DNA of 64,000 nt from Caballeronia glebae (GTDB lineage Bacteria > Pseudomonadota > Gammaproteobacteria > Burkholderiales > Burkholderiaceae), in the NCBI RefSeq assembly GCF_001545035.1, contig NZ_FCOJ02000019.1, positions 1 through 64,000 on the forward strand, written 5' to 3'. The notes below the pieces were generated by a model. That model made no database searches and was not told where the DNA came from. It saw nothing but the letters and a program-made list of their open reading frames with translations. Within the stretch, counting starts at the first letter, position 1, and every line of letters begins with the position of its first letter. Shown in pieces: positions 41,030 to 42,546 of the stretch. The position numbers were made by a program, and so were the translations under genes.

Positions 41030-41431
41030 TCACCGGGCTGCGGGAATCACCTGCAACAGCGGTTCGGGCTTCACGGCGATCTCGCCGGAGAAAGGGCGAT
41101 CGTGCGAAAGAATCAGTAGCATGGTCGTTGCGAGGCTCGCGCAAAAAAGCCCGAGCGCGAGTGCGGATGTGAGCCGGTTTTCGCCATGCACTAGCGCGAT
41201 CGCGAACACGAGGCACACGGCGAGAAAGCTCAGGCATAGCCATTTGATGCCGCTGACTTCGGACCGGCTCACCAGAATGCGCTCGCGGCGCGCTTCGAGC
41301 GCCTGCTCCAGCGATACCGTCAACTGGCGCTGCGCGGTCTGTTGTCCCGCCGTGTTCGCCGGCAGGGCGAGCGTGAACTGAAGCGCCTCGTTGAGCGTGG
41401 GCGGACTGATTTTCAGCGTGACCGCGCCCTG
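41030..41431 (-). pseudogene. C-terminal half of a DUF4239 (bestrophin-like) membrane protein gene, split by inversion
   Basis: The minus strand encodes QGAVTLKISPPTLNEALQFT, a helical region with LVSRSEVSGIKWLCLSFLAV and two membrane segments, then HDRPFSGEIAVKPEPLLQVI near the stop. This is the second half of a DUF4239 protein. Its first half lies on the opposite strand at 41836-42219. At 41431 a codon boundary of this frame meets the antisense of a dihydrofolate-reductase-family gene. Joined to the other half it would give about 261 residues, the usual length of the family. Confidence 0.8.
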
Positions 41432-41716
41432 ACGGGCGAACTCGCCGACGCGGTGCGCGCGCTCAAACGTGATGAAGGCGCGAATCTGCTGACTTTCGGA
41501 AGCGGCGAAACCGTGCGTCAACTGCTCGCGGCCGGCCTCGTCGACGAGCTTTGCCTGCTGATCTACCCCGTGATGCTGGGACGCGGCAAACGCTTGTTCG
41601 GCGACGACGCGCTCGCGTCCGCCTTCACGCTGGCGCACTCGGCGCGCACGCCCGGCGGCGTGCTCGTCACGCGCTATCTGCGCGATGGCAACGTGCGCAC
41701 CGGCACGTTCGAATAA
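41429..41716 (+). pseudogene. C-terminal half of a dihydrofolate-reductase-family (RibD C-terminal-like) gene, split by inversion
   Basis: The plus strand reads LTGELADAVRALKRDEGANL, then LVDELCLLIYPVMLGRGKRLFG, and ends GNVRTGTFE with a stop at 41714-41716. This is the C-terminal half of a YyaP/DHFR-family protein. No start codon belongs to it. The matching N-terminal half is on the minus strand at 42220-42546. Both halves have codon boundaries at the inferred break points. Confidence 0.8.
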
Positions 41717-41835
41717 GCGATTGACGCTCGCAAACGCGCGGCGTCGCACCGGTCGATACCGCGCCGCCTGTGATTAAATGTGCTTTCCGTCCAGCCGATA
41801 CATCGATCCGTCGTTTGTCCACGGAGCACATCCCG

Positions 41836-42219
41836 ATGACGAGCACCTGGTTGCATAACCTTCCGTTGTGGCAGATGACGCTCGCGGTATTCGGCGCGAC
41901 GGGCGCGGCAGGCGCGGCGGTCCATTTCGTGACGGGACGGCTCGCGGCCAGCGCGTATCGGCGCTCGTTCACCGCGCTTTCGCCCGGCCTGCTTTCGCCG
42001 ATCGGCATCATCTTCGGCTTGCTCATCGCCTTCACCGCCGCGCAGGTCTGGAACGACACGGCGCGCGCCAACAACGCCGTGGACGCCGAAGCCGGCGCGC
42101 TGCGATCGGTCGTCGTGCTTTCCGCCGTGTTCCCGGAAGACGCGCAGACGCAGTTGCGAAAGCTGGTGCGGGAATACATCGAGTACACCGTCGGCACCGA
42201 ATGGCCGATGATGGCGCGC
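41836..42219 (+). pseudogene. N-terminal half of the DUF4239 membrane protein gene, split by inversion
   Basis: The ATG at 41836 begins a 128-codon segment with membrane stretches (LWQMTLAVFGATGAAGAAVH; SPGLLSPIGIIFGLLIAFTA) and the DUF4239 pattern VWNDTARANNAVDAEAGALR, ending EWPMMAR. After 42219 the frame continues only as antisense of the DHFR-family gene. Its natural continuation, QGAVTLKIS, is on the minus strand ending at 41431. A GGAG lies about 10 nt upstream of the start. Confidence 0.8.
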
Positions 42220-42546
42220 ATGACTGTTGCGCCAGTCGAGCGCGCCGGAGCGATGCGTGGCCACGTGCTTCGGTACGCGATTGAACACATCGGCGATGGC
42301 GCGGCTCTTCGAATCGGCGGAAACGTGCGGCCAGTGCGACGCGAATATGTCGTAGGTGCGACGCCCGAGCAGCAACTCGAACGGCTGCGCGAGCAGACTT
42401 TGCACGTGCTGGCCGATGGCTTCGTCGGCATAGGGAACGATCCAGCCGCCGAAACGGAAGTCGCCGCTTGCGTCTTCGGTCGGGCCGCCGGGAGCCTGAA
42501 TCACGCCATCGACGCTGATGAAAATCGAAACGACGAGCTTGCGCAT
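42220..42546 (-). pseudogene. N-terminal half of the dihydrofolate-reductase-family gene, split by inversion
   Basis: An ATG at 42546 with GGAG upstream opens MRKLVVSIFISVDGVIQAPG, then ELLLGRRTYDIFASHWPHV and ALDWRNSH, the N-terminal half of a YyaP/DHFR-family protein. Beyond 42220 the frame is antisense to the DUF4239 gene. The expected continuation LTGELADAVRALK is on the plus strand from 41429. Rejoined, the protein would have about 203 residues, normal for the family. Confidence 0.8.

Follow-up and report, generated by a model that had tools for sequence, protein, structure and literature searches.

Inversions that end inside coding sequences are known among invertons, intragenic examples of which were reportedly described by Chanin et al. 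in 2024. Invertons carry inverted repeats of 10–40 nt at their flanks, according to the passages of PMC11892184 used here. Repeats also characterize the rearrangements studied in Salmonella, where, in the cited part of PMC3411829, all experimentally confirmed spontaneous events had short homologous repeats at the endpoints. The same part describes selection for longer microhomology, and hence that study bears less on repeat-free events. For human/chimpanzee micro-inversions of 17–33 nt, flanked by inverted repeats of 3–75 nt, replication-based template switching has been proposed, with short homology suggested as the cause (PMC8755829, cited passages). As to end joining, one survey reports in the portion cited here that 84% of NHEJ-bearing bacteria have a single Ku copy (PMC7719229).

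The locus of Caballeronia glebae considered here contains an inversion of about 0.79 kb that splits two genes. It resembles invertons, including intragenic ones, in that the inversion ends inside coding sequence. Unlike them, it lacks repeat sites above the chance level, its contig has no recombinase match, and no second state could be seen. It also differs from the Salmonella rearrangements as the cited text presents them, there being no repeats above chance at its ends. With the human/chimpanzee events, as far as they are described in the cited passages, it shares its local character, but not its size. With its small local extent, near-blunt junctions and few bases lost, it is most like a repeat-free or microhomology-level illegitimate rearrangement.

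Structure of the locus

The window, i.e. the whole stretch of DNA analysed, comprises bases 1–64000 of contig C127 (120,121 bp). The draft genome has 7.84 Mb in 194 contigs and is 99.66% complete. Among the best 80 loci, the closest relatives of the thiolase gene adjoining the inversion were from Caballeronia (C. zhejiangensis, 95%; C. calidae and C. temeraria, 92%). The features of the locus are as follows; G-numbers denote compared genomes.

39835–41019, plus strand: thiolase, the left anchor (Pfam Thiolase_N and Thiolase_C); orientation unchanged, collinear in G005, G021 and G017
41030–41428, minus strand: C-half of the PF14023 gene with the stop codon (profile positions 120–232, E 1.4e-24, for the piece 41033–41431)
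41418–41440, no strand: left junction, PF14023 C-side of relatives to about 41428, then reductase C-side
41429–42217, no strand: the inverted segment of about 789 bp, with its ends placed to within ±2 bp, from blastn against related Caballeronia and from junction sequences
41429–41716, plus strand: C-half of the RibD_C reductase, 95 codons and the stop (profile 120–196, E 2.9e-16, for the piece 41429–41713)
41836–42219, plus strand: N-half of the PF14023 (DUF4239/Bestrophin-like) gene, 128 codons (profile 5–109, E 1.1e-25)
42208–42230, no strand: right junction, PF14023 N-side to about 42217, then reductase N-side
42217–42546, minus strand: N-half of the RibD_C (DHFR-like) reductase, 110 codons (profile 1–80, E 1.1e-06, for the piece 42220–42546)
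42853–43881, minus strand: GDSL lipase/esterase, the right anchor (PF00657, E 1.5e-18); orientation unchanged, collinear in G005, G021 and G017

The inverted segment thus holds the PF14023 N-half, intergenic DNA and the reductase C-half. The PF14023 C-half lies outside it, as does the reductase N-half except for its last bases. In the window, the PF14023 N-half continues into antisense reductase DNA. Both PF14023 and PF01872 (RibD_C) have matches above the cut-off in the window, each divided over two strands, while the G021 homologues are unbroken (PF14023 at 7–232 of 232, RibD_C at 1–196 of 197). The four half-genes are located where the original prediction had placed them, each of them, searched apart, matching the complementary part of its Pfam family. 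In NCBIfam no match was found for the G021 PF14023 homologue or for the window PF14023 halves, and with the pyrimidine-reductase models the reductase scores were far under the cut-offs.

The region separating the reductase from the GDSL gene (42615–42850) is partly conserved in G005, aligned as far as 42806. An open frame spanning it on the minus strand (42501–42893) has no Pfam match. It may resemble a toxin-antitoxin remnant.

Comparison with relatives

In blastn alignments with G005, G021, G006 and G030, the flanks all run in the same direction and the central 0.79 kb runs in the other; in G017 the PF14023 gene alone aligns at the middle block. A DNA search of 58 genomes of the genus, this one included, found the flipped arrangement in this genome only. 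In the fetched loci (tblastn), the PF14023 halves directly adjoin each other on a single strand in all 18 other genomes having both (G002, G004, G005, G006, G007, G011, G016, G017, G020, G021, G022, G025, G028, G030, G032, G033, G066, G081). Those of the reductase follow each other in order on a single strand in 23 of 23 others (G001, G004, G005, G006, G007, G010, G011, G014, G016, G021, G022, G023, G027, G029, G030, G032, G062, G066, G068, G071, G075, G080, G081), one copy being frameshifted. Together the two lists include 29 of the 57 other genomes. G065 has two adjacent opposite-strand matches, the pattern of a whole gene, in the DNA search alone. G009 has a remnant, described below. The remaining 26 gave no match (17) or scraps of about 30–70 bp (9) in a DNA search that may miss diverged copies. 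Both genes seem to be dispensable in the genus.

These data bear out the predicted inversion of about 0.79 kb splitting two genes, as relatives carry each gene whole and the block is on the opposite strand between collinear flanks. The same four half-genes, for which the prediction had called for a search in related genomes, were found in none of the 57. Since relatives hold whole genes, the change from whole to split is the supported direction; that the window arrangement is ancestral is ruled out by the halves being together in 18 of 18 and 23 of 23 other genomes among the fetched loci.

Several other variants were observed. The frameshifted reductase copy (L146, G075:C60, 1270–1954) is from a 3.8-Mb genome, small for the genus, and the G029 reductase has a small insertion at the joint. 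In G009 (L047:6579–6737; G009:C40, around 173575–173893) a C-terminal PF14023 scrap alone is left of the gene pair and adjoins a scrap matching window positions 42457–42619. G009 is another Caballeronia that lost the same gene pair by a different route; no repeats were found around this remnant. At L038 (G007:C204) and L037 (G022:C23) both genes are on one strand in the reversed order, PF14023 first, and hence the gene pair itself has been rearranged within the genus. Fourteen plasmid records were matched, none of them having a single site that spans 80% of the 4.2-kb query. In the best one, an 11.6-kb stretch of C. zhejiangensis NZ_CP084285.1, the two pieces of PF14023 are adjacent and those of the reductase gave no match. 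The NK8 plasmid record yielded nothing further.

Junctions, repeats and sequence decay

Junctions were compared with nine relatives on the PF14023 side and fourteen on the reductase side. The breaks are best placed at 41428/41429 and at about 42217/42218. The left junction has 0–3 bp in common, the number being set by one synonymous base of the ancestor, whose exact bases we infer; the right one has about 2 bp in common. In relatives the genes align as 128+132 codons (PF14023) and 110+95 codons (reductase) without overlap, whereas in the window the last codon of both N-halves occupies the same three bases. About 3 bp would therefore be missing overall, an apparent net loss relative to the intact arrangement. 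Judged against intact relatives, near-blunt junctions with a small loss fit an illegitimate, i.e. repeat-independent, inversion.

The claim that flipping the segment back restores both frames exactly holds nearly: the PF14023 joint residue differs, the reductase has one residue more in relatives, and the locus is 3 bp shorter. In four relatives the aligned spans are 257–260 codons (PF14023) and 205 codons (reductase), as against predicted lengths of 261 and 203 aa. The breaks do fall on codon boundaries, within an ambiguity of 1–3 bp, which by our estimate would not be unlikely by chance (about 1 in 9).

Exact inverted matches within 20 bp of the breaks reach 6 bp at most, as the prediction had it, which is no better than chance, 38% of 2000 random pairs being as good. 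In four intact relatives, each compared with its own 2000 random pairs, the maximum is 4–5 bp (85–99.9% as good). The best inverted 26-mer identity at the window breaks is 12, a value reached by 83% of random pairs. Up to 400 bp from either break, exact inverted matches are no longer than 11 bp. In a separate listing of inverted pairs, the 25 longest of 279 do not exceed 33 nt at 73%. Contig C127 carries none of the 8 resolvase (PF00239) and 29 integrase (PF00589) matches in the genome.

No stops or length changes were found in the four halves over the stretches compared. The dN averaged over comparisons with four outgroup genomes (G030, G081, G066, G006) was as follows, in the order PF14023 N-half, PF14023 C-half, reductase N-half, reductase C-half.

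Window: 0.112, 0.087, 0.089, 0.127
G021 (intact): 0.138, 0.112, 0.090, 0.111
G005 (intact): 0.155, 0.092, 0.105, 0.125

There is no clear excess of amino-acid change in the window halves over intact homologues, the reductase C-half being at the upper end, slightly above G021 and about equal to G005. The halves are thus undamaged, as had been predicted; halves without decay imply that the inversion is recent or not real. An older event with decay is unsupported by dN.

Origin and consequences of the inversion

We consider it rather likely that the locus arose by a recent, one-off, repeat-free chromosomal micro-inversion, most likely via end joining, that split and most likely inactivated both genes. 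Before the event, the reductase gene would have been located just upstream of the PF14023 gene on the same strand. Two breaks about 0.79 kb apart, one in each gene, would have been sealed after the segment between them had turned round, at a cost of about 3 bp. End joining that uses hardly any homology or none, through Ku/LigD or another pathway, is the most likely route. Both genes would be left split and most likely inactivated, and the inverted form would presumably be fixed in the strain. Ku is matched three times in the genome, once in a shorter frame, and LigD_N twice, on contigs C81 and C159 and in both cases close to a Ku match. The third Ku match (G000:C159:18936–19352, L156) is in a 199-aa frame, covers profile positions 1–148 and points away from a LigD frame. 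LigD was searched in this genome only. Ku is present in 55 of the 58 genomes of the genus, and hence it shows that the pathway is available without singling out this genome. Against this scenario, two close breaks are required, the confirmed Salmonella rearrangements differ from it in their endpoint repeats, and the dN of the reductase C-half is at the upper end.

An assembly or library artefact, in which the draft would carry a misoriented piece of a chromosome whose two genes are in fact whole, is an unlikely explanation, although the likeliest of the alternatives. It would agree with the 194-contig draft state, with halves lacking clear decay and with a flipped state shared by no other genome examined. 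Against it, the locus lies in the interior of a 120-kb contig, and the longest exact inverted match near the breaks is the above 11 bp. Usual assembly word sizes exceed this length. A simple mis-turn by itself would presumably not remove 3 bp. Other opposite-strand matches, scanned at an identity of at least 75% on contigs C127 and C95 against five relatives, are few and all look like repeats or paralogues; a separate flank alignment covers matches of at least 150 bp. C127 gave an 81-bp match with G005 and a 108-bp match with G021, and C95 none. The 108-bp match overlaps a part of this genome that also aligns in the main direction, and the G005 sequence holding the 81-bp match has an alignment at another place as well, so that both look like dispersed repeats. 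An opposite-strand match to G030 of 355 columns at 67% identity (C127:87499–87848) is below the cut. At the same threshold, about 97 kb of C127 aligned with G021, 69 kb with G005, 50 kb with G017, 13 kb with G006 and 8 kb with G030. On C95, 25 kb aligned with G006, 17 kb with G017 and 15 kb with G021; this contig was tested mainly against these three, as G030 and G005 barely align (54 and 221 bp). The scarcity of such matches, in a comparison covering about 0.16 Mb of the 7.84-Mb genome, opposes systematic mis-assembly.

Copying of the segment in reverse by template switching (microhomology-mediated break-induced replication) is less likely still. The short microhomology is compatible with it, as is the proposal for the human/chimpanzee events, but those, in the cited text of PMC8755829, are far shorter than 0.79 kb and all repeat-flanked, and the inverted match at the window breaks is no longer than chance. 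The original prediction had also allowed for a switchable element, and a phase-variable, inverton-like segment exchanging the ends of the two genes would account for frames being open over the junctions (fused frames of 286, 290, 239 and 124 aa) in a genome that does encode resolvase- and integrase-family proteins. This reading finds little in its favour otherwise: the breaks have no inverted repeats beyond chance, the contig has no resolvase or integrase match, the flipped state is in no relative examined, and a 3-bp loss would not be expected of a switch. Open antisense frames are moreover ordinary here, the codon-aligned antisense frames of 8 intact homologues having 0–4 stops each. A switch is thus unlikely, indeed very improbable, although the invertase might belong to a different family or act from outside the contig. 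It is just as improbable that the inversion is tolerated or selected for chimaeric proteins made from its new open frames, a birth of genes through a repeat-free inversion, or that a switch uses an unrecognised site. One predicted chimaera would join the membrane-protein N-half to an antisense-derived tail of 158 residues; with so few antisense stops fused open frames are expected, and meaningful fused proteins need not be invoked.

The micro-inversion is therefore probably real, recent and repeat-free, inactivating two apparently dispensable genes. Partial redundancy is possible, as PF14023 is matched at one other place in the genome, over almost its full length (C174), and RibD_C at two, near-full within a 539-aa open frame (C122) and partial (C121). 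Among the matches listed from the open-licence PMC literature, no title dealt with this locus, with inversions in Caballeronia or with DUF4239 function, and no paper was found that combines Caballeronia with inversion and pseudogenes.

The kind of event is already known, and this inversion is a clean new example. For annotation it is a warning that gene fragments and long open antisense frames could be called separate genes. Inversions without repeats are hard to see after the halves decay. If real, this one would be a fresh bacterial example resolved to the base, caught before decay and breaking two genes at once, and such events would make the cost of end joining countable in Ku-bearing bacteria.
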